NCBI GenBank assembly: GCA_018822105.1
Contig: JAHJLB010000049.1
Span: 1 to 64,000 of the forward strand
DNA from: Pseudomonadota bacterium
GTDB lineage: Bacteria; Desulfobacterota; Desulfovibrionia; Desulfovibrionales; Desulfovibrionaceae
Direction: 5' to 3'
Length of the DNA stretch: 64,000 nt
In this document: in pieces, positions 13,728-57,971 of the stretch
How the letters are laid out: every line of letters starts with the position of its first letter
How positions within the stretch are numbered: the stretch's first letter is position 1
Program-made: the position numbers and the translations under genes
The notes under the pieces: model-generated
What the model was told of the DNA's origin: nothing
Databases searched by the model: none
Seen by the model: only the letters and a program-made list of their open reading frames with translations

Positions 13728-15032
13728 CTACCAGTACAGGCCGATGACGGGGATGTTCACGCCCTCGAGATCCAGCCGGCCGTTCAGGTCCATGATGCTG
13801 TGGCCCTCGCGCCAGGGCAGGTCGCGCCAGGCGAATTCCGGGAACGTGCGCGAGATGACGATGGTGTCGCTTTCGCCGATGACCTTTGGGGCGTCGTCGG
13901 AGAGCATCTTGCGCAGGTCGGGGAGGTACTGCAGGGCGTAGGCCATGTGGCTGCCGCTGTAGGCCACGGCGCAGATGGCCGGGTCGTAGATGCCGATCTT
14001 CACGCCGGCGCGGTCCAGCATGGCGCCCAGGATGACCAGGGGCGAGTCGCGCAGGTCGTCGGTGCGTTCCTTGAAGGCCAGGCCGAAGAGGCCCACGGAC
14101 TTGGTCCTGCTGGCCAGGATGCGGTCGGCGACGCCACGGATCTGGTTCAGGTTGGAGTCCTCCACGCTGGCCAGCATGGGCACCTTGATGCCCATGCGGC
14201 GGCCGAAGGTGTTCATGGCCGAGAGGTCCTTGCCCAGGCAGGAGCCGCCATAGGCGAAGCCGGGCCGCAGGTACACGGGGGAGATGTTCAGCTTGGTGTC
14301 CAGGCAGAAGATGTCCATGGCCTTGCGGGGGTCCACGCCCATGCCCTTGCACAGCGAGCCGATCTCGTTGGCGAAGGTCACCTTCACGGCGTGGAAGCAG
14401 TTGTCCGCGTACTTGGCCACCGCCGCCGTCAGGGGGTCGGTGAACACGATGGGGGCGTCGAAGCCTGGATACAGCCCCTCGCAGAAATGCCTGCCCTGGT
14501 CTCCGGTGCAGCCGAAGACGATCTTGGCCGGGTGGAAGAAGTCCTCGATGGCGCTGCCCTCGCGCAAAAACTCCGGGTGCACCACGTAGCCCGGCGACTG
14601 CCGGCCCGCCAGGCGCTTCTCCAGCTTGTTGATGATGTCCTGATGCACCACGGGCAGCGCGGTGGAGCGCACCAGCATGGGCACCATGCGGCCGGTGGCC
14701 AGGCGCATGTCCGCGATCTGCAGGGCCACGATCTCCAGCACGCGCTGGTCCACAAAGCCGTCCGCCGCGGGCGGGGTGCCCACGCACAGGAGGCAGGCGT
14801 CGGCCCCGTCAAAGGCCTCCTGGGCGTCGGTGGTGGCGCTGATGCGCCCCTTGCCCCGGTGCTTGAGCAGGAGTTCCGGCAGGCCCGGTTCGACCATGGG
14901 GCTCTTGCCCGCGTTGATGAGCTCCACCTTGCCCGGATTGGGGTCCGTGCCGACCATCTCGTGGCCCATCTCCGCCAGGCAGGCCATGGTGGTGCTGCCT
15001 ACATAACCAAGTCCGAATACTGCGATTCTCAT
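13728..15032 (-). CDS. algD: GDP-mannose 6-dehydrogenase (AlgD-like)
   Basis: 434 aa, the length of Pseudomonas AlgD. An N-terminal NAD Rossmann motif (FGLGYVGSTTMACLAE, 6-21), a middle helix and a C-terminal sugar-binding domain are in order. The catalytic loop FAYGGSCLGKD carries the active-site Cys, and VTFANEI and FKERTDDLRDSPLV match the AlgD/UDP-glucose dehydrogenase superfamily. It would oxidise GDP-mannose to GDP-mannuronate, the monomer for alginate. UDP-glucose dehydrogenase is the alternative by sequence alone; the alg8 and alg44 neighbours favour GDP-mannose. Last gene of the operon. Confidence 0.85.
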   Translation of the reverse strand: MRIAVFGLGYVGSTTMACLAEMGHEMVGTDPNPGKVELINAGKSPMVEPGLPELLLKHRGKGRISATTDAQEAFDGADACLLCVGTPPAADGFVDQRVLEIVALQIADMRLATGRMVPMLVRSTALPVVHQDIINKLEKRLAGRQSPGYVVHPEFLREGSAIEDFFHPAKIVFGCTGDQGRHFCEGLYPGFDAPIVFTDPLTAAVAKYADNCFHAVKVTFANEIGSLCKGMGVDPRKAMDIFCLDTKLNISPVYLRPGFAYGGSCLGKDLSAMNTFGRRMGIKVPMLASVEDSNLNQIRGVADRILASRTKSVGLFGLAFKERTDDLRDSPLVILGAMLDRAGVKIGIYDPAICAVAYSGSHMAYALQYLPDLRKMLSDDAPKVIGESDTIVISRTFPEFAWRDLPWREGHSIMDLNGRLDLEGVNIPVIGLYW

Positions 15033-15077
15033 GGGCCTATCCTGTGTGGTTCAGGTTCGTTGACGGCGCCGATGGCT

Positions 15078-16643
15078 TCAGGAAGCGGTGAAGCCCAGGA
15101 TGCTCAGAACTGTGCCGAACGGGGGCGGGCGCAGGACGCCGATGTAGATCAGCAATACAAATAGGAATGTTGCAACATATAATATGGTCAGGTAGAGGGC
15201 AATGGAATTCTTGACGACCCACTTCACGCCCTCGGCCGGGGAGTAACGCTGGTCCTGGCGGTTGGCCCAACGTTGGTTGGGCAGCCGGAAGAGCAGGTAC
15301 ACCTTGGTGAAGGCGTTCACCATCTGGTTGGCGTACAAAGCGAAGGGGTAGCTCATTTCGATGCGGCGGTCATGGTACCAGATGAGGCTGGCCAGGAACA
15401 GGCGCGTGAGCATGACCCAGAGCAGGTACGAGGTCCAGTAGGACCTGCTGACGATGAAGCCCGCGCTGATCATGGCCAGGGGGGCGGCCAGGGAGGTCCA
15501 CATGGCGATCCTCTGGTCCACGATGCACCACCAGATGAAGAAGCCCACGCGTCGGGGGCCCAGGGCGATGGCCCGGGCGCCGTTTCTGAGCATGTTGCCG
15601 CTCCAGCGCAGCAGGTTCTGGATCATGCGCCCGTACATGTCCTCCTGGCGGATGGTGTCCACGGTCCAGCACAGGGCGTCGGGCACGTAGAGCATCTCCG
15701 CGCGGTCCTTCAAAAGGGCGTACCAGGTGCTCTTGTCGTCGCCGGAGAGGAAGCGGAAGCGGCCCCACAGCCAGTGGTCCAGGCAGTCGGCCTCGATGAG
15801 GCGGATGAACTTGACGTCCGTGACCTTCTTGGCGCGGAAGATGGACAAGCGGCCGGTGAGGGTGAGCACCCTGCCCGCCAGGGCGTGGGACTGCATGACC
15901 ATGTGCCGCTGGCCGAAGCGCAGGTCGAACCAGCGCCGCAAAAATCTCGGGCCGTAGAGGATGGGCTGCTCGTCCGTGGTCATGGCGTGCATGTTCGGGT
16001 TCAGGGCCAGCAGGGGCAGGCAGCGCTGCAGGCAGCCGGGGGCCAGGATGGTGTCGCCGTCGATGAACATGATGGGGGTGTTGCTGCCGATCTTCTGGCG
16101 TGAGATGGCCCGCAGGGCCAGGCCGATGGCGATGCGCTTGCCGGGCTGGTTCTGGCGCACGAAGACGACCTCGACGTTCATGCCCCTGGCGAAGCGCTTG
16201 ACGCTTTCCTGGATGATCTTCTCGTCGGCCGTGGTGCCGGAGCCCACGAAGATGCGCGTGGGCACGCCGACCCGCTGGGCCTCGTGGATGATGGACAGGA
16301 TGACCTTCTCGGTGATGACGCGCTGCTCGTAGAAGGTGGTCATCATGAACACGAGCTCTTCGGGGCGCCAGCCGTTGTTCCAGAGGAGGTCGGCCTTGAT
16401 GCGCAGCCTGGGGAAGACGTACTTGCCGTAGACGATGGCGCGCACGAAGTGGGTCAGCCACCAGACATAGCGCCAGATGCCCAGGTAGGCCATGACCAGG
16501 ATCCACTGCCCCCGGTCCGCGTCCCAGATGTTGTTGTCCAGCGTCAGGAAGCCGACGACCATGACGCCGAAGTACAGGAGGAGCTTGAACAGCTCTCCTG
16601 CCTTCCAGCGGAAGGGCCCCTGGTGCGGTGTTACCGGCGCCAT
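15078..16643 (-). CDS. alg8: Alg8-like membrane glycosyltransferase (mannuronan polymerase)
   Basis: 521 aa. Two or more N-terminal membrane helices (about 20-70), a cytoplasmic GT2 domain and four or so C-terminal helices. Key motifs are MFIDGD (the DXD motif), a later acidic pair LSGDDKSTW and QNLLRWSGNMLRN, the Q(R/Q)xRW-type acceptor site. In Pseudomonas, Alg8 polymerises GDP-mannuronate and moves the chain across the inner membrane together with Alg44. ATG 16643 overlaps the end of the alg44 fusion gene by 13 bases, which couples polymerase and copolymerase. Confidence 0.88.
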   Translation of the reverse strand: MAPVTPHQGPFRWKAGELFKLLLYFGVMVVGFLTLDNNIWDADRGQWILVMAYLGIWRYVWWLTHFVRAIVYGKYVFPRLRIKADLLWNNGWRPEELVFMMTTFYEQRVITEKVILSIIHEAQRVGVPTRIFVGSGTTADEKIIQESVKRFARGMNVEVVFVRQNQPGKRIAIGLALRAISRQKIGSNTPIMFIDGDTILAPGCLQRCLPLLALNPNMHAMTTDEQPILYGPRFLRRWFDLRFGQRHMVMQSHALAGRVLTLTGRLSIFRAKKVTDVKFIRLIEADCLDHWLWGRFRFLSGDDKSTWYALLKDRAEMLYVPDALCWTVDTIRQEDMYGRMIQNLLRWSGNMLRNGARAIALGPRRVGFFIWWCIVDQRIAMWTSLAAPLAMISAGFIVSRSYWTSYLLWVMLTRLFLASLIWYHDRRIEMSYPFALYANQMVNAFTKVYLLFRLPNQRWANRQDQRYSPAEGVKWVVKNSIALYLTILYVATFLFVLLIYIGVLRPPPFGTVLSILGFTAS

Positions 16644-19435
16644 ACCTGCTGCCGGACGAGGAAGAACAGGTTCATGGGGGAGGCCTCAGCCTTGAGCAGG
16701 GCGGTCATGGCCGGGTTCTGCTCCGGTCCGTTCAGGGTCTGGTAGGCCAGCAGGGAGCGCACGGCCTTCTCCGTGTCAAAGGCGCCGCCCTTCTTGGCGT
16801 ACTCGAAGCCGGCCTTGCCGCGCTTCTCGTCGATGGCCGCGGTGGACTTGGCGAATTCGTAGTGGGTGTCGCCCTTGGCGATCTTGTCGCGCAGGAACTC
16901 ATAGGCCTTGTTCACAGGCTCCTTGCAGCAGCCGGTGATGAGCGCGATCTCCATCCAGGGCTCCAGGTCGTAGGCCTGGTAGTGCAGGGCGTTGCGCTCC
17001 TTGTGGTCCAGGGTCTCGCCCGTGGCCGCGTCGATGTTGGCCTTGAGGTGGGCCTGGACCTCGGCCTGGACCTTGTCGTAGGTGGCCTGGTCGCCCAGGG
17101 CGCGCGCCAGAAGCAGGAGCATCTTGATCTGGTGGGTGCGGTGGTTGTTGTACTGGGTCTTCTCGCCGTACTTCCAGGCCAGCTTGGCGTCGCGCATCTG
17201 GGCGAACCAGCCCAGCACCGCCGTGCGGTCCGGCTCGCTCATCTCGCAGCGCACAAGGTCATAGGCGTAGACCAGCTTGTCCAGGCGCGTTTCGTCGATG
17301 GGGTGCCCGGTGGGCTTGTTGGTCTTGGCCCAGCCCCGCAGGATGGCCGTGGCCTTGTCCAGGTACTTGCGCTCGCCCAGGACGCGGAAGCCCAGGGCCA
17401 GGTTGGCCGCGTTGTCGGCATCCTGGAAGGCCCGGCGCGAGGCGATGAGCTCCGGCGAGTCCTTGTCCGTCTGCCCGGCGCTGGCCAGGGTGCGCACCGG
17501 GGCGACGCCGTACTTCATGGCCTTCTCCGCCGCGGCGGCGAGCTGGGCGCGGACGGGCTCGGCCAGGGCCTCGGCCTTGATCTGCGTGGAGAAGCGGCCC
17601 GGCCAGAGCAGGGACTGGCCGTCCTTGCAGGCCTCGTTGGCCACGGGCCACACGGTGGGGCCCAGGCTGGACTGGCCTGCGGGCTGGCTGGGGGCGGGCT
17701 GGCCGGAGATGGGCACGGTGACCATGGTGCCGGCCTCGGTCCGCTTTTCGGTGGGACCCTGCATGCGCACAACCTCCCTGAATTCGTAGGTCATGGCCTG
17801 GTTGGCCGCCTTGGCCTCCTCTTCCTTGGAGGCCGTGGAGCGGAAGAAGTTGAACAGGGCCGCCAGCACCCGGTTGGACGGATTGCGGGAGAAGTTCACG
17901 GTGCACGGTGTGCCGGTGACGATGTCCTTGACCTCGACGTTCTTGCCGTCCTTGACGAAGAACAGGGTGGCCACGGCCGTGCGGTCCACGGTGGTGCGCC
18001 AGCGGTAGCGGCTGTCGGTCTCGTCGACGAAGCCGCGGGTGCGCTCGATCTGGATGACGCGGGCCTCGCGCTCGATGTTCAGGGAGGGGATGTAGACCTT
18101 GCACAGGGAGCCCAGGCGCACCTGAGTGGACTCGGCCTGGGTCAGGAAGACCTCGATGTAGCGGCTGTCGTCGCGCTCCAGCACGGCCAGGTTGTCGCCG
18201 CGGTCCACGGTGTTGCCGGGGGTCTTGAGCACGCGCACCACGTGTCCGTCAAAGGGCGCGCGGATGATGAGCAGGTCGGCCCCTCCTCCTCCTCCTCCTC
18301 CTCCCAGGCCTCTTTCCAGCTCGTCCACGCTCCTGCGGGCGGCCTCGATCTCGCCGTTCAGTCCGTAGCCGCGGCCCTCGATGCGGTCGCCGGAGAAGAA
18401 CAGTCCGGAGCGGTTCAGGCCGCTTACGGCCACATGGGCGATGCGCAGGTCGTTCTTGGCCACGGCCAGCTCGTTCTCAAGCTTTTCCACGAGCTGCTGC
18501 TCGGCCTCGAGCTCGGACTTGCTGATGGCGCCCTGGGCCTCCAGGGCCTTGCGGCGCGCCAGGTCGTTCTTGGCCAGGGCCAAGTCCTGGGTGACGGCCG
18601 CCACGCGGTCCGTGGCGCTGTTCAGGCGCGAGTCGCCGACCTTGCTGTAGATGCCCCGGGCGGCAAAATCCGCACCACGCTGGGCCAACAGGGCGTTCAG
18701 GCGGAAGCGGGCCGTGTTCAGGGCGACCATGACGCCGGAGTTGCCGACGTTGCCGGAGCCGTCAAGGCTGTTGAGCTTGATGACCGGCATGCCGGTCTTG
18801 ACGCTGCGGTCCACGGGGATGATGAGCTTCTCGAAGATGCCCGACACCGGCGCCACCAGGGGCTCGGTGGGGGCCACCACAACCCCGGCCTCCACTTCGA
18901 TGCGCATGAAGTTGGAGTAGAGGGTGATGCAGATGTAGAGCAAAATGCCACCGCCCACCAGCAGGTACATGAGCAAAATGAGCAGGCGCTTCAGGTTGCG
19001 GCGCAGGGGCGGGGTGTTGGCCTCCTCGATGAGGTCCATGTCCACCGGGGTGACGGGCATGTCCACCCGCCGGATGGCGTCCTGGAAGGAGGCCATTTCG
19101 CCCCCGAGAAGCCCCTCGCTGAAATACTTCAGCAGCTCGAGGTTCTCTTCGGTGATGTTCTCGAACTGCACCGCCAGCATGCCGTCGCCGTCGCGCGGGG
19201 TGCGCACCGCCTTGGAGGACTGGTTGAAGCTGATGTGGAAGCCCCGGAAGTCGATGAGCAGCTTCGGGTTGAATATCTCGTCCTTCTTCAGGGAGCCATC
19301 ATAGCCGTCCAGGCGGAATCCGCCCATGCTCCAGTCCGCGGCCTTGTACAGCTTGCCGTCGATCTCCACATGAATGGGCACGGACAGGCGGTAATGGAGC
19401 CGCTGACTCGGTGTTTCTCTCGTGACTTCTGGCAT
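16631..19435 (-). CDS. Alg44-AlgL fusion: PilZ c-di-GMP receptor, membrane fusion domain and alginate lyase
   Basis: 934 aa, against 389 aa for Alg44 and about 370 for AlgL. Order: cytoplasmic PilZ domain 10-110 with c-di-GMP residues R12xxxR16 and D34xSxxG39; membrane helix 150-172; periplasmic biotinyl-lipoyl/coiled-coil membrane-fusion region 180-530 broken by eight glycines at 378-385; a Pro/Gln-rich linker 570-595; alginate lyase (PL5 type) 600-925. The lyase part has YNNHRTHQIK with His765, and RNALHYQAYDLEPW with Arg814, His818 and Tyr819, matching the AlgL active site. c-di-GMP binding should switch on Alg8, and the tethered lyase would edit or clear periplasmic polymer. An AGGTGGGA ribosome site precedes ATG 19435. 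Confidence 0.9.
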   Translation of the reverse strand: MPEVTRETPSQRLHYRLSVPIHVEIDGKLYKAADWSMGGFRLDGYDGSLKKDEIFNPKLLIDFRGFHISFNQSSKAVRTPRDGDGMLAVQFENITEENLELLKYFSEGLLGGEMASFQDAIRRVDMPVTPVDMDLIEEANTPPLRRNLKRLLILLMYLLVGGGILLYICITLYSNFMRIEVEAGVVVAPTEPLVAPVSGIFEKLIIPVDRSVKTGMPVIKLNSLDGSGNVGNSGVMVALNTARFRLNALLAQRGADFAARGIYSKVGDSRLNSATDRVAAVTQDLALAKNDLARRKALEAQGAISKSELEAEQQLVEKLENELAVAKNDLRIAHVAVSGLNRSGLFFSGDRIEGRGYGLNGEIEAARRSVDELERGLGGGGGGGGADLLIIRAPFDGHVVRVLKTPGNTVDRGDNLAVLERDDSRYIEVFLTQAESTQVRLGSLCKVYIPSLNIEREARVIQIERTRGFVDETDSRYRWRTTVDRTAVATLFFVKDGKNVEVKDIVTGTPCTVNFSRNPSNRVLAALFNFFRSTASKEEEAKAANQAMTYEFREVVRMQGPTEKRTEAGTMVTVPISGQPAPSQPAGQSSLGPTVWPVANEACKDGQSLLWPGRFSTQIKAEALAEPVRAQLAAAAEKAMKYGVAPVRTLASAGQTDKDSPELIASRRAFQDADNAANLALGFRVLGERKYLDKATAILRGWAKTNKPTGHPIDETRLDKLVYAYDLVRCEMSEPDRTAVLGWFAQMRDAKLAWKYGEKTQYNNHRTHQIKMLLLLARALGDQATYDKVQAEVQAHLKANIDAATGETLDHKERNALHYQAYDLEPWMEIALITGCCKEPVNKAYEFLRDKIAKGDTHYEFAKSTAAIDEKRGKAGFEYAKKGGAFDTEKAVRSLLAYQTLNGPEQNPAMTALLKAEASPMNLFFLVRQQVWRR
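18282..18304 (-). repeat. In-frame GGA trinucleotide run encoding polyglycine
   Basis: About seven tandem CCT units on the plus strand read as GGA glycine codons on the coding strand. They lie at the tip of the coiled-coil hairpin of the Alg44 part (residues 378-385). Slippage would change the number of glycines without shifting the frame. Confidence 0.85.
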
Positions 19436-19745: not shown

Positions 19746-19774
19746 TTGACCGCCGGGGCCTGCCTGGCTATAGG
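19746..19774 (+). promoter_or_regulatory. Sigma-70 promoter of the riboswitch-BenE unit
   Basis: TTGACC at 19746-19751, a 17-base spacer and TATAGG at 19769-19774. The predicted start point near 19781 lies just before the first paired base of the ZTP riboswitch. Confidence 0.75.
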
Positions 19775-19786
19775 CCCTGATTGCAA

Positions 19787-19862
19787 TCGCCCTGCGTGAC
19801 TGGCGAAACGTGGAAGAAACCACGAGGAAGCGCAGGGTGCCCCCTGCCGCTCGCCTGGGCTG
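19787..19862 (+). promoter_or_regulatory. ZTP (pfl) riboswitch
   Basis: The first stem P1 pairs CCCTGCG (19790-19796) with CGCAGGG (19831-19837). Inside it are the conserved TGACTGGCG, a hairpin CGTGG-AAGAAA-CCACG and AGGAAGCG. The 3' subdomain ends with CCGCTCGCCTGGGC. These elements in this order are the hallmark of the pfl motif, which binds ZTP/ZMP and reports low 10-formyl-tetrahydrofolate. No T-tract terminator follows. A stem CCCTCCC/CGGGAGG downstream could mask a GGAGG ribosome site near 19921, so control may be translational (inference). Confidence 0.88.
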
Positions 19863-19930
19863 CATCCCCCTTGCGCGGGATGTACCACCGACACCCTCCC
19901 ATGTCCCGGGAGGCGCTTTCGGAGGCGTTC

Positions 19931-21133
19931 ATGCGGCCAATCAGCCAAACCACCACCGCAACCCTGCTGGACCTGCGCCGGGACTTCTCCCTGTCCGCCG
20001 CAGTGGCCGGGCTCGTCGCCGTCATGGTCTCCTATGGCGGGCCGGCGGCCATCATCTTCCAGGCCTCGGCCAAGGCCGGCCTGACCCCCGGACAGCTCTC
20101 CAGCTGGATCTGGGCCATCTCCATCGGCTCCGGCCTGGCAGGCCTGGTCTTGAGCCTCGCCTACCGCGCGCCGGTCATCGTGGCCTGGTCCACGCCCGGC
20201 GCCGCGCTTCTGGCCGCGGGCTGGGCGGCCTATCCCTACCCGCAGGCCGTCGGGGCCTTTGTGCTGGCCGGCGCGGCCATCACCCTGTTCGGGGCCACGG
20301 GGCTCTTCTCCGCGCTCATGGAGCGCATCCCGCGCGCCGTTGTGGCGGCCATGCTGGCGGGAATTCTGTTCCGCTTCGGGGTGGAGGTGTTCACCGCGCT
20401 CTCCGGCGCGCCCATGCTCGTGGCACCCATGCTGGCCTGCTACCTGGCCGTGAAGCGCCTCAGCCCGCGCTACGCCATCCTGGCGACCCTCCTGGCCGGG
20501 CTGGCCGCCTCCGCGGCCCTGGGCCTGCTGCATCTGGGCGCGGTCAGCGCGGCCCTGGCCCGGCCCGAGCTGACCAGGCCGGACTTCCGCCTGGGCGCGC
20601 TCATGGGCCTGGGGGTGCCGCTGTTCCTGGTGACCATGACCGGCCAGAACGCCACGGGCCTCGGCGTGCTGCGCACCGCAGGCTACAAGACCCCCGGCGG
20701 ACCGCTGGTGGCGGCCACGGGCGCCCTGTCCACGCTCCTGGCCCCCTTCGGGGCCCACGGCATCAACCTGGCGGCCATCACGGCGGCCATCTGCACCGGG
20801 GCCGAGGCCCACGCCGATCCCGACCGGCGTTACGTGGCCGGGGTCGTCTGCGGGCTGGCCTACCTGGTGGTGGGAGTCTTCGGGGCCACGCTGGTGGGCG
20901 TCTTCGCCGCGCTGCCCGCCCCCCTGGTGGCGGTCATCGCCGGCCTGGCCCTGTTCGGGGCGCTCATGGCCGGGCTGACCCAGGCCATGGACGACGAGCC
21001 GCGGCGCGAGGCCGCGCTGGTGACCTTCCTCGTCACCGTGTCCGGCGTCACGCTGTGGGGCGTGGGTTCGGCCTTCTGGGGACTGGTGGGCGGCGTGTTG
21101 GCCAATGCCGCCCTGACCGCGCGCAGGGGGTAG
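19931..21133 (+). CDS. BenE-family benzoate/H+ symporter-like transporter under ZTP control
   Basis: 400 aa with about twelve hydrophobic segments across the whole length, in the inner membrane. Family marks are VMVSYGGPAAIIFQA near 31-45, TPGAALLAAGW near 88-98 and MTGQNATGLGVLR near 238. BenE proteins import benzoate with protons. The upstream ZTP riboswitch ties expression to folate or purine one-carbon stress, so the real cargo may be a folate or purine precursor; p-aminobenzoate is an attractive guess. ATG 19931 was chosen for the GGAGG seven bases before it; ATG 19901 is possible. Confidence 0.82.
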   Translation: MRPISQTTTATLLDLRRDFSLSAAVAGLVAVMVSYGGPAAIIFQASAKAGLTPGQLSSWIWAISIGSGLAGLVLSLAYRAPVIVAWSTPGAALLAAGWAAYPYPQAVGAFVLAGAAITLFGATGLFSALMERIPRAVVAAMLAGILFRFGVEVFTALSGAPMLVAPMLACYLAVKRLSPRYAILATLLAGLAASAALGLLHLGAVSAALARPELTRPDFRLGALMGLGVPLFLVTMTGQNATGLGVLRTAGYKTPGGPLVAATGALSTLLAPFGAHGINLAAITAAICTGAEAHADPDRRYVAGVVCGLAYLVVGVFGATLVGVFAALPAPLVAVIAGLALFGALMAGLTQAMDDEPRREAALVTFLVTVSGVTLWGVGSAFWGLVGGVLANAALTARRG

Positions 21134-21143
21134 GACAGGGCAG

Positions 21144-21340
21144 GCCTCCGGCGGCCGGGGGGCTTGAAGCCCCCCCGGGCCCCCCCATTGGCTTGCGGGG
21201 CTGCTGTTCCGGCGCTTTGCGCCGGAACAGCAGCCCCGCAAGCATGAGGTGTCGGGATGGGGCGCAGCGGTGTTCCCCACCCCTTGAAATCGGATGGGGG
21301 GGGCGGGGGGAATCGTTTCCTTCGGCGGACCCCCTGGGGA
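21144..21340. repeat. GC-rich palindromic extragenic element, copy 2, with a 24-bp perfect hairpin
   Basis: The spacer after benE contains, on the minus strand, a GGGGGCTTCAAGCCCCC stem with CGGCCGCCGGAGGC (21144-21177). A perfect inverted repeat of 24-base arms (21192-21215 and 21219-21242) with a TTT loop follows. Then comes a segment near 21290-21340 with a run of G, GGGGGGAATC and CGGCGG that is shared with the reverse complement of the 3899-4047 element. There is no T run, so simple termination is not obvious. Confidence 0.7.
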
Positions 21341-55471: not shown

Positions 55472-55649
55472 ACCACCAGCAAACTGTTTGATAGAAGACC
55501 TCTTCCTCTGCCCATCCAGCGCGGCAGGGAGTGCTTCAAGCCGACCCAGCATTGCGCTGGACTATTCCTTAACCGGCATGACGTGGATGGCCTTGATGAG
55601 GCCATGACCTCGTCGTCCGGCTTGACTCCTCTGTCCGGCCAGACTAACA

Positions 55650-55815
55650 ATTCTCTTGTTCGGTGCCCGCAAGGGCGAAGAGGGAATCCCGTGAAATTCG
55701 GGAGCGGACCCGCCGCCGTGAGCCCCGCATAAAGTCGACCCCCGCGTGTGCCACTGGGAGGAATTCCGGGAAGGCCGGGGCCGACGGGGTGAGTCGGAAG
55801 ACCTGCCGGATATGA
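55650..55815 (+). promoter_or_regulatory. Cobalamin (adenosylcobalamin-type) riboswitch
   Basis: Conserved parts in order: a 5' segment with GGTGCCC and AGGGAATCCCGTG (55661-55693), GCCGCCGTGAGCCCC, the B12 box GCCACTG (55750-55756), the GGAATTCCGGGAAGGCC stem and GAGTCGGAAGACCTGCC (55791-55807). It binds a cobalamin and lowers expression when the vitamin is plentiful. A CCTGTCGG/CCGACAGG stem (55825-55856) and a terminator follow as expression platform. Confidence 0.93.
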
Positions 55816-55878
55816 CTTGTGTTTCCTGTCGGCAACGAGGGCTTTTGCCCGACAGGACTTGAAGGGGACGAATACGGG

Positions 55879-55916
55879 CATCCCTTTCCGCCTTGAGCGC
55901 GGGAAGGGATTTTTTT
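55879..55916 (+). terminator. Rho-independent terminator of the cobalamin riboswitch
   Basis: ATCCCTT and AAGGGAT arms, with inner GC pairs, followed by seven T residues, 40 bases before the cbiK ATG. Control is therefore likely by transcription attenuation. Confidence 0.88.
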
Positions 55917-55955
55917 ATTCTCCCCGCACCTGCCCCTCCGCATTGGAGGTCTTTC

Positions 55956-56849
55956 ATGCGCATCCCCACCTTTCCTTTGGTTCTTCGTCTCCTGCTGCTC
56001 GCCGTCCTGGCGTTGCCTCTGGCACTGCCCGATATGGCCCAGGCTGGGCACAAGGCTCCGGACAAGCGCGGCATCCTGCTCGTGGCCTTCGGCACCAGTG
56101 TGCCCGAGGCCGTCAGCGCCATCGACGCCCTGAAACAGCAGACAGAGGCCGCCTTCCCCGGCGTCCCCGTGCGCATGGCCTATTCGTCCAAGATCATCCG
56201 CGACAAGATTGCCGGGGAAGGAGTCACTAAAAAATCCCCAGCCCAGGCCCTGGCCGACATGGCCGCCGAGGGCTTCACTGAGGTCGCCGTGCAGTCCCTG
56301 CACGCCATCCCCGGCCGCGAGTATTCCGACATCAAGGCCACGGCCGAGGCCTTTCAGGCCATGCCCAAGGGGATTAGGAAGGTCACAGTGGGCCGCCCCC
56401 TGCTCTATTCCCACGAGGACATCGCCAAAGCCGCCGAGGCCATCCTGCTCTCCCTGCCCAAATACAAGAAGGGTGCGGCCGTGTTGCTCATGGGCCATGG
56501 CACGGACCACCCGGCCAACGCCGCCTACGCCGCCCTGCAACTGGCCCTGTGGAAGCATGACCAGAGCGTCTTCATCGCCACAGTGGAGGGCACTCCCGGC
56601 CTGGACGAGATCATCCCGGTGCTCAAGCGCCAGGGAGTGCGGGCAGCGCACCTCGTGCCCCTCATGAGCGTTGCTGGCGACCACGCCCTCAACGACATGG
56701 CTGGCAAGGACGATGATTCCTGGGCCTCCAAGCTCAAGACTGCGGGCATCGCCAGCACCCCCGTGCTGGTGGGCCTGGGCAGCCGCCCAGCCGTGGCAGG
56801 ACTGTGGATCGACCACCTGCGCGATGCGGTGAAGGAACTCGGAGAATAG
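55956..56849 (+). CDS. cbiK: Periplasmic sirohydrochlorin cobaltochelatase CbiK
   Basis: 297 aa. A signal peptide (LRLLLLAVLALPLALPDMAQA, given here as residues about 10-30) is followed by the CbiK chelatase fold: LLVAFGTSVPEAVSAID near 42, VQSLHAIPGREY with metal-binding His, LLMGHGTDHPAN with the second His, and VPLMSVAGDHALNDMAG near the C-terminus. The enzyme inserts Co2+ (or Fe2+) into sirohydrochlorin. A periplasmic version with heme binding is known in Desulfovibrio vulgaris, where a transport role was suggested. GGAGG precedes ATG 55956; control is by the B12 riboswitch. Confidence 0.93.
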   Translation: MRIPTFPLVLRLLLLAVLALPLALPDMAQAGHKAPDKRGILLVAFGTSVPEAVSAIDALKQQTEAAFPGVPVRMAYSSKIIRDKIAGEGVTKKSPAQALADMAAEGFTEVAVQSLHAIPGREYSDIKATAEAFQAMPKGIRKVTVGRPLLYSHEDIAKAAEAILLSLPKYKKGAAVLLMGHGTDHPANAAYAALQLALWKHDQSVFIATVEGTPGLDEIIPVLKRQGVRAAHLVPLMSVAGDHALNDMAGKDDDSWASKLKTAGIASTPVLVGLGSRPAVAGLWIDHLRDAVKELGE

Positions 56850-56996
56850 CCCGGACTTGGCAGAGGAAGGGCCAGCGCGCGCAAGGCCGCGCTGCCCTGC
56901 TTCTGCCTATGGCTGATCTGTCCGGAGCAGTGGCGCCCTGCGCCCTGGACGGCCCCACAGCCAATGTATTCCCGAAAGCATCCAAGGAGGACATCT

Positions 56997-57971
56997 ATGC
57001 TGCGGACATCCACATGGCCCAGCCCCCTGCCATCGGCGCGTCCCAAGCGCATCTGGCACCTGGCGCTGGCCCTCGTGCTGCTCTGTTCGTCTCAAGCTCG
57101 GGCGGATATCAGCGTCACCGACGACCAGGGCCAGACCATCGTCCTGGCACGCCCGGCTCAGCGCGTCATTGCGCTCTACGGCGCGCTCAACGAAATCCTG
57201 GACGGCCTGGGCCAGACCAGCCGCATCGTGGCGCGCGCCAATGCGGACGAAACGCCCGCGCGCATCACAAAGCTGCCGAGCATCGGCACGCACAGACGAC
57301 CGAACATCGAGGCCGTGCTGGCCCAGAAGCCCGACCTGGTGCTGCAAATGGCTGGCCGCAAGGAGACCTCCCAGTCTGTGGAAGCGCTCAAGAAACACGG
57401 GGTGCGCGTGGCCGTGTTCCGGGCGTCGAGCTTCACAGAGTTGTTCAGCATCATCCGCCGCGTGGGTGCGCTCACCGGAGCGGATGCCCAGGCCGAAGAC
57501 ATGGTGCGCGGTATGGAGACGCGGCTTGCGGCGCTGGATGCGAGGATAGCGAACACGGCGGAGCGCCCGCGTGTCTTCTTCGAGGTGCATTCGCCAAACA
57601 TGTATGGGGCCGGGCAATCAAGCGTCGTGGCGGAGATCATCAACCATGCAGGAGGCGTCAACTGCGTGGAAGAGCGCGTCCAGTTCGCGCACCTGAGCGA
57701 GGAGGAACTCATGCGGCTCAAGCCAGAGGCCTACCTCATCCAGCGCGGCCCCATGAACCGCTCCCCGCTACCGCTCACGGCACGCCCACGCCTGCGCACC
57801 CTGCCCGCCACCCAGAGCGGCCGGGCCTGGTTCGTGGACGAACTGAAGTACTCGCGTCCAGGCCCGCGCAACGTCGATGCAGCCGAGGAACTGGCCGGAC
57901 TGCTGCACCCGGAACTCGTAAACCAAGGCGTCAAGCCCCCCAAGGACTCCAAGCATAAGAACAAGAAATAA
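56997..57971 (+). CDS. Periplasmic corrinoid/iron-chelate binding protein (BtuF/FecB type)
   Basis: 324 aa. Signal peptide about 18-38 (ending QARA), then a class III periplasmic binding protein: VTDDQGQTIVLARPAQRVIALYG is split over the first strand, NIEAVLAQKPDLVLQM near 95-110, and GGVNCVEERVQFAHLSEEELMRLKPEAYLI in the second lobe. A Lys-rich tail closes it. ATG 56997 follows AAGGAGG. It probably shares the cbiK transcript and captures cobalamin, a precursor or heme for an ABC permease such as the FecCD gene at 63417. Confidence 0.85.
   Translation: MLRTSTWPSPLPSARPKRIWHLALALVLLCSSQARADISVTDDQGQTIVLARPAQRVIALYGALNEILDGLGQTSRIVARANADETPARITKLPSIGTHRRPNIEAVLAQKPDLVLQMAGRKETSQSVEALKKHGVRVAVFRASSFTELFSIIRRVGALTGADAQAEDMVRGMETRLAALDARIANTAERPRVFFEVHSPNMYGAGQSSVVAEIINHAGGVNCVEERVQFAHLSEEELMRLKPEAYLIQRGPMNRSPLPLTARPRLRTLPATQSGRAWFVDELKYSRPGPRNVDAAEELAGLLHPELVNQGVKPPKDSKHKNKK

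Follow-up and report, generated by a model that had tools for sequence, protein, structure and literature searches.

We report that in the Desulfovibrionaceae the ZMP/ZTP (pfl) RNA, a known riboswitch, has a real, conserved and new target in a gene for a BenE-family transporter, and that two unrelated regulators tie this carrier to one-carbon status. The gene was found in a 64,000-nucleotide stretch of a Humidesulfovibrio genome, called the window below. The riboswitch tells us in what metabolic state this orphan carrier is wanted, and the presence of two unrelated regulators on one carrier clade points to one-carbon shortage and narrows the cargo of this BenE subfamily to a short, testable list. 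That this carrier has some role in one-carbon metabolism is probable. The best explanation as a whole, to which we give somewhat less than an even chance, is that ZTP-driven BenE is an importer called upon in one-carbon shortage, with p-aminobenzoate (PABA) as its most likely single cargo.

The benE locus and its riboswitch

The features of the locus are as follows.

19746-19751, plus strand: -35 element TTGACC, read from the sequence
19769-19774, plus strand: -10 element TATAGG, after a 17-nt spacer, read from the sequence
19786-19867, plus strand: ZMP/ZTP riboswitch aptamer (pfl RNA, RF01750), cmscan, complete model
19802-19805 and 19852-19855, plus strand: pseudoknot strands GGCG and CGCC inside the aptamer, located with the fold
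19921-19925, plus strand: Shine-Dalgarno (SD) sequence GGAGG, its first base 10 nt ahead of the ATG
19931-21133, plus strand: benE, a BenE-family, UraA-fold secondary transporter of 400 aa (PF03594, TIGR00843, AlphaFold2 model)
21191-21243, unstranded: perfect 25-bp inverted repeat with a 3-nt loop, directly downstream of benE

The pfl motif had been called complete in the initial annotation, and the Infernal search confirms it: the match to RF01750 covers positions 1-86 of the 86 in the model and scores 67.3 bits, with the gathering threshold at 39 and an E-value of 9.7e-9 when both strands of the 64 kb and 4227 families are counted. It is the sole RF01750 match in the window's genome (G000), the whole of which was searched. 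The P3 hairpin and both pseudoknot strands are present and are kept in aligned relatives, and the leader presumably responds to the ligand of its class.

A good promoter had also been claimed ahead of the aptamer. TTGAC stands at the same place in all nine Humidesulfovibrio leaders that were aligned (the tenth, from G029, was dropped by the start-site pattern) and relatives keep roughly the TA only of the -10 element. The positions of TTGACC and TATAGG place the likely +1 near 19781, about 5-7 nt upstream of the aptamer. A consensus sigma-70 scan did not report this promoter, because it accepts only T as the final base of the -10 element.

The designation of the gene as a BenE-type transporter holds, with 454.2 bits to PF03594 and 401.2 bits to TIGR00843 (cut-off 203.4). 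Its span, however, had been given as 19787-21133, which is nearly the stop-to-stop reading frame (mechanical ORF 19781-21133); the start is the ATG at 19931, to which the SD points and which the homologues share. The gene is on its own, the next downstream ORF with relatives lying on the opposite strand. The downstream inverted repeat may mark the end of the transcription unit, a terminator role that we infer, since no T-run follows the repeat. Around benE in the window lie genes for a lyase/HlyD protein and a metallophosphatase as well as a small ORF; there are no ben/cat genes, and the identified neighbours include no pdx genes.

Two other regions of the window may be recorded here. The minus-strand genes at 13728-19435 encode a sugar-nucleotide dehydrogenase and a glycosyltransferase (both named by eye), together with a protein of 934 aa in which an HlyD and an alginate-lyase domain are combined; the group resembles an exopolysaccharide cluster of the alginate type in which parts have been fused. 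A cobalamin riboswitch (RF00174, 105 bits) at 55644-55824 stands ahead of an ORF within 55893-56849 that by eye resembles a periplasmic sirohydrochlorin cobaltochelatase, and ahead of a BtuF-like binding protein at 56964-57971.

Expression platform

Between the aptamer and the start codon the following elements were located.

19862-19883, plus strand: hairpin H1, GCATCCC/GGGATGT, directly after P3 (MFE and constrained fold)
19888-19922, plus strand: hairpin H2, embracing the SD (fold)
19888-19891 and 19919-19922, plus strand: outer stem of H2, CCGA/TCGG, the TCGG running into the SD
19894-19899 and 19908-19913, plus strand: inner stem of H2, CCCTCC/GGGAGG (fold)
19923-19927, plus strand: AGGCG, overlapping the SD and complementary to CGCCT at 19852-19856 in the P3/pseudoknot loop

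The window's switch looks translational: a hairpin embraces the SD, and no terminator-like site was found on the plus strand of 19786-19931. The BenE start, the SD and the SD hairpin are conserved in related leaders. In the ten leaders from Humidesulfovibrio, H2 has CCTCC/GGAGG or CTTCC/GGAAG as its inner stem and CCGA/TCGG as its outer stem, the latter being CCGG/CTGG in G110; these two-sided changes keep the pairing, and G153 departs from the pattern. The glyA leaders of the Desulfovibrionaceae have a related layout, with CCTTCC ahead of GGAGG and an H1-like hairpin visible at the same place; this shared layout suggests that benE received a glyA-type leader.

We propose that transcription from the sigma-70-type promoter would yield a leader that folds into the ZTP aptamer. 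In its ligand-free state the CGCCT of the P3 loop would pair with AGGCG and hold the SD; upon binding, CGCC would be drawn into the pseudoknot and the SD freed. A shortage of 10-formyl-tetrahydrofolate would cause ZMP/ZTP to accumulate and occupy the aptamer, the ribosome site of benE would be freed, and the UraA-fold carrier would import a small nutrient, anionic or aromatic, to relieve the one-carbon shortage. This would be a translational ON switch, whose direction we borrow from the riboswitch class. The complementarity of AGGCG to the P3 loop comes about because CG follows the SD in most leaders. In ViennaRNA folds the SD hairpin is paired both in the free leader and with the aptamer imposed, and the AGGCG-CGCCT exchange is not seen; because the hairpin persists, these computed folds do not recover the switching step, which counts against the proposal.

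Distribution of the ZTP-BenE pair

Further ZTP-BenE pairs, for which the initial annotation had proposed a search, do exist. Across 199 Desulfovibrionaceae genomes there are 53 ZTP sites in 52 genomes, one of which (G006) lies under the family cut-off. BenE follows 16 of these sites, SHMT/glyA 33 (32 in one blast cluster, of which one member was confirmed by NCBIfam, plus G051, also confirmed) and formate C-acetyltransferase one (G070); the remaining three are G027, the second site of G041, and G006. That second riboswitch of G041 (G041:C87:27241-27323) lies about 3.3 kb from the glyA one and has no SHMT ORF directly behind it. The pair occurs in ten of the 15 Humidesulfovibrio genomes, the other five having neither ZTP riboswitch nor BenE, and in six Nitratidesulfovibrio genomes. 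A third genus, Fundidesulfovibrio, has BenE without the ZTP link.

Beyond the family, a sample of 395 genomes of the phylum has ZTP riboswitches in 25 genomes, and none of the 38 sites read outside the Desulfovibrionaceae precedes BenE (the reading left out two below-cut-off sites, G544:C199 and G508:C5). For 71 BenE loci outside the Desulfovibrionaceae, the 600 nt ahead of the gene were searched with a loose pattern, which is not a covariance scan and which recovered 30 of 30 positives; it found no ZTP riboswitch there. No paper combining 'ZTP riboswitch', 'transporter' and 'benzoate' was returned by a literature search, nor any with 'ZTP riboswitch' and 'Desulfovibrio', and neither the ZTP-BenE pairing, the two-regulator clade nor the coupling ORF described below was met in the literature searched.

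The 38 sites precede monomeric isocitrate dehydrogenase (11), a glyoxylate-type aminotransferase (9), RnfC (8), fhs (2), SHMT (2) and six single genes including a Kup-like potassium carrier (L204); NCBIfam named one member each of the isocitrate dehydrogenase, aminotransferase and RnfC clusters as well as the Kup single, and the other names were given by eye. In other families of the phylum (L205-L241) ZTP targets such as isocitrate dehydrogenase, RnfC, the aminotransferase and the potassium carrier are thus far from purine/folate genes.

In all six Nitratidesulfovibrio genomes (L035, L039, L042, L043, L044 and L046) a switch-proximal SD and ATG open a reading frame of 74-94 codons that ends in ...RSAC-stop and whose stop overlaps the benE start (ATGnTGA). 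Its lengths are 225, 225, 252, 258, 285 and 285 nt, the frame being kept across indels, and its likely role is translational coupling to benE. A conserved functional leader peptide was rejected: nonsynonymous codon changes exceed synonymous ones in 15 of the 15 pairs of the six sequences, and since the changes are mostly nonsynonymous the peptide is not conserved.

One carrier clade tied to two regulators

In all six BenE-bearing Fundidesulfovibrio genomes benE is followed by an ArsR-type regulator with a methyltransferase domain and then by ahcY (616 bits). At 32-39 nt ahead of benE all six carry a near-perfect palindrome, ATATCAAcATATcTTGATAT or ATATCAAnATATnTTGATAT, which agrees with the published SahR form ATC-N10-GAT. 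PMC4239095 describes the SahR site as a palindrome of 20 bp whose common form is ATC-10 nt-GAT and assigns sahR, ahcY, metH, metH2, metF and metK to the core regulon; its main text does not contain the word 'benzoate'. A further genus (g32, one genome) has a sahR-like gene and ahcY directly upstream of BenE. No SahR-type palindrome accompanies the 16 ZTP-linked BenE genes, save one chance match in L031 that is the riboswitch hairpin itself, and no ATC-N10-GAT palindrome lies in the 400 nt upstream of the window's benE.

In a BenE tree of 108 tips the 16 ZTP-linked and the seven sahR/ahcY-linked proteins form one clade with a support of 0.998 and nothing else inside. The inner supports of this 23-member clade are 0.2-0.3, too low to fix the branching order of ZTP- and SahR-linked members. 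A profile built from the 16 ZTP-linked proteins found BenE at E <= 1e-60 in 35 of 348 genomes of the order, and the group above 600 bits is exactly the 23 clade members. Every sampled member of the clade is thus tied to a one-carbon signal, all 23 being linked to ZTP or to sahR/ahcY. The notion that the ZTP link alone marks a separate substrate subfamily was rejected, as the two kinds share one clade.

Six of the ten Humidesulfovibrio benE loci have a class IV aminotransferase gene directly upstream, preceded by metF-asd in five of the six, these being the five where the sequence reaches, an association that speaks for the one-carbon reading. The window is one of the four loci with another upstream gene.

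The carrier

The AlphaFold2 model of BenE (pLDDT 87.8) aligns with UraA (5xls) over 366 residues at a VIA-align Z of 27.8 and an rmsd of 3.8. The model has the UraA/SLC26-like fold including the TM3/TM10 half-helices, with short strands ahead of the helices at 84-88 and 279-282, and its top Foldseek match is prestin with salicylate. A search of PDB chains with the sequence gave no significant match, NCS2 included.

The clade keeps the BenE-family motifs WSTPG (TM3) and LAPFGxHG.NLAAITAAIC (TM10). Fixed in the clade are A39, A40, W98, T242, L244 and G245 (and N240); at these positions the two BenE from ben operons carry L, V, L, P, M/I and A (and F). These changes sit at TM1, TM3 and TM8, where GQNATGLG replaces the GQFLPG[MI]A of ben-operon BenE. 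N240 is not unique to the clade, being shared by YdcO and the SbnAB group. Following the fold, the fixed residues would line the pocket. Since a BenE of 49.5% identity lies in a benABCD-benK operon, and given the Foldseek match, an aromatic carboxylate is a natural cargo; a benzoate-like one is not to be assumed, because of the fixed changes at TM1, TM3 and TM8.

The fetched flanks of the 71 BenE loci outside the Desulfovibrionaceae contain a MocR/EhuR-like regulator in 51 cases and SHMT in 21, and further genes there are DAO, RidA, threonine-synthase-like and SbnA/SbnB. Loci L096-L159 are mostly from Pseudomonas, and L098 and L133-L165 from Streptomyces and relatives. On account of the regulators and SHMT, the nearest BenE outside the family point to PLP/amino-acid matters, which weighs against the explanation favoured here.

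Candidate cargoes

ZTP reports a lack of formyl-THF, and SAH rises with methyl-THF shortage. Because both rise when folate is short, one folate precursor would answer both signals, and for this reason PABA heads our ranking, ahead of other aromatic acids, vitamin B6, purines and donors resembling amino acids. Taken by itself, PABA is a possible cargo rather than a probable one, and import would be the direction of transport. PABA should be usable, since FolP (DHPS) is over cut-off in 14 of the 15 Humidesulfovibrio genomes. The initial annotation had suggested uptake of PABA, and this stays plausible: SahR/ahcY on the closest BenE relatives speak for it indirectly, but each of the 15 Humidesulfovibrio genomes encodes a PabB-like protein, whether or not it has BenE (in the window's genome at 327.9 bits, slightly below the 328.4 cut-off), no pab or fol gene was recognised beside BenE among the genes with identified neighbours, and pyridoxine has been predicted for other BenE. 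PABA auxotrophy as the reason for BenE is rejected on the ubiquity of the PabB-like protein. We know of no dedicated PABA importer, and the literature search showed none. A fuller proposal, which we regard as doubtful, is that the clade is a dedicated PABA importer on two alarms, the ZTP riboswitch and SAH via SahR, with the non-conserved coupling ORF of Nitratidesulfovibrio solely delivering ribosomes to benE. If PABA is the cargo, BenE would be a dedicated PABA importer and a nutrient-uptake arm of the response to ZTP, which has been seen as an alarmone (PMC7266159); should B6 or a purine prove right instead, the family that takes its name from benzoate would be re-annotated just as clearly.

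It is unlikely that BenE imports another aromatic acid (benzoate, a hydroxybenzoate or a methoxybenzoate), whether to be catabolised or to supply methyl groups to tetrahydrofolate. BenE does occur in ben/cat gene clusters, and a protein of the benzoate-CoA-ligase family (TIGR02262 over cut-off), adjoining a xanthine-oxidase-type molybdenum enzyme, is encoded by eight of the 15 Humidesulfovibrio genomes, seven of the ten with BenE and one of the five without. Yet the window's genome, which is 99.98% complete, has no such ligase above the cut-off of 375 bits, its best match scoring 278, which disfavours benzoate catabolism there, and catabolism would leave the ZTP and SahR control unexplained. 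A vitamin B6 vitamer, as cofactor precursor for SHMT and the transsulfuration enzymes, is distinctly unlikely, even though a B6 shortage would make SHMT fail and ZTP rise. PMC5320631 predicts BenE to be a pyridoxine transporter in PdxR regulons and, for MocR regulons, links it with GlyA, the BenE of plasmid pBYT1-1 lies with YggS and pdxK, and SHMT stands in the 21 flanks counted above. Against this, the pdxK-linked BenE has 46% identity and does not belong to the clade, de novo pdxJ is present in 13 of the 15 Humidesulfovibrio genomes, and pyridoxal kinase (TIGR00687) is over cut-off in none of the 15 (best 54 against 144.5 bits), so that imported pyridoxine would be without its usual salvage kinase, a ThiD-type substitute aside.

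We consider it improbable that BenE moves a purine base, exports AICA or its riboside from surplus ZMP or, in the SahR operon, handles adenine or adenosine released by AhcY. A purine-related cargo had been the alternative in the initial annotation. The fold is shared with UraA and UapA, ZTP is a signal that purine synthesis is blocked, adenosine is a product of AhcY, and proteins with a phosphoribosyltransferase domain occur in all 15 Humidesulfovibrio genomes, at a domain level that does not separate APRT from HPRT. But the lack of any PDB sequence match extends to NCS2, a purine importer does not answer SAH, and characterised BenE is described for benzoate, which counts against a purine. Least probable is an amino-acid-like one-carbon donor, serine or a relative, feeding SHMT: glyA is the commonest ZTP target in the Desulfovibrionaceae, and SHMT, threonine-synthase-like, RidA and SbnA/SbnB genes surround BenE elsewhere, but the TM3 and TM10 motifs of the BenE family are kept, and we know of no amino-acid transport by BenE, which tells against such a donor.

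As an observation in its own right, in the eight Humidesulfovibrio loci with the aryl-CoA ligase of TIGR02262 (L188-L195) its neighbours are a SpoIIE-type sensor and Mo/FeS/FAD subunits of the xanthine-dehydrogenase type, an uncharacterised aromatic or purine pathway.

Comparison with known systems

The window's riboswitch resembles others of the ZMP/ZTP class: its aptamer is complete, scores well over the gathering threshold and lies in the 5' leader of the target. That target is a BenE-family transporter, whereas in PMC2864571 the five commonest targets of pfl RNAs are purH, fhs, pfl, glyA and folD, and the platform looks translational, whereas terminators overlap many of the pfl RNAs described there. 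As to the regulon of SahR, the SAH-responsive ArsR-family regulator, it is the sister BenE of Fundidesulfovibrio that sit in a benE-sahR-ahcY string with its palindrome; the window's benE has no such site and a ZTP riboswitch in its place.

Among BenE proteins, the benzoate/H+ symporters of ben operons (for example L200, on a P. luteola plasmid) belong to the same family at 49.5% identity and share the TM3 and TM10 motifs, but the window's BenE differs from them in having no ben/cat neighbours, other residues at TM1, the end of TM3 and TM8, and ZTP control. E. coli YdcO (sutR-ydcO) shares the family at about 45% identity but adjoins an XRE-type regulator and falls in a separate clade. The BenE with MocR/PdxR regulators, the predicted pyridoxine transporters of PMC5320631, share with the window's both the family and a functional link between BenE and SHMT, but they lie outside the 23-member clade, and Humidesulfovibrio has no pyridoxal kinase over cut-off.
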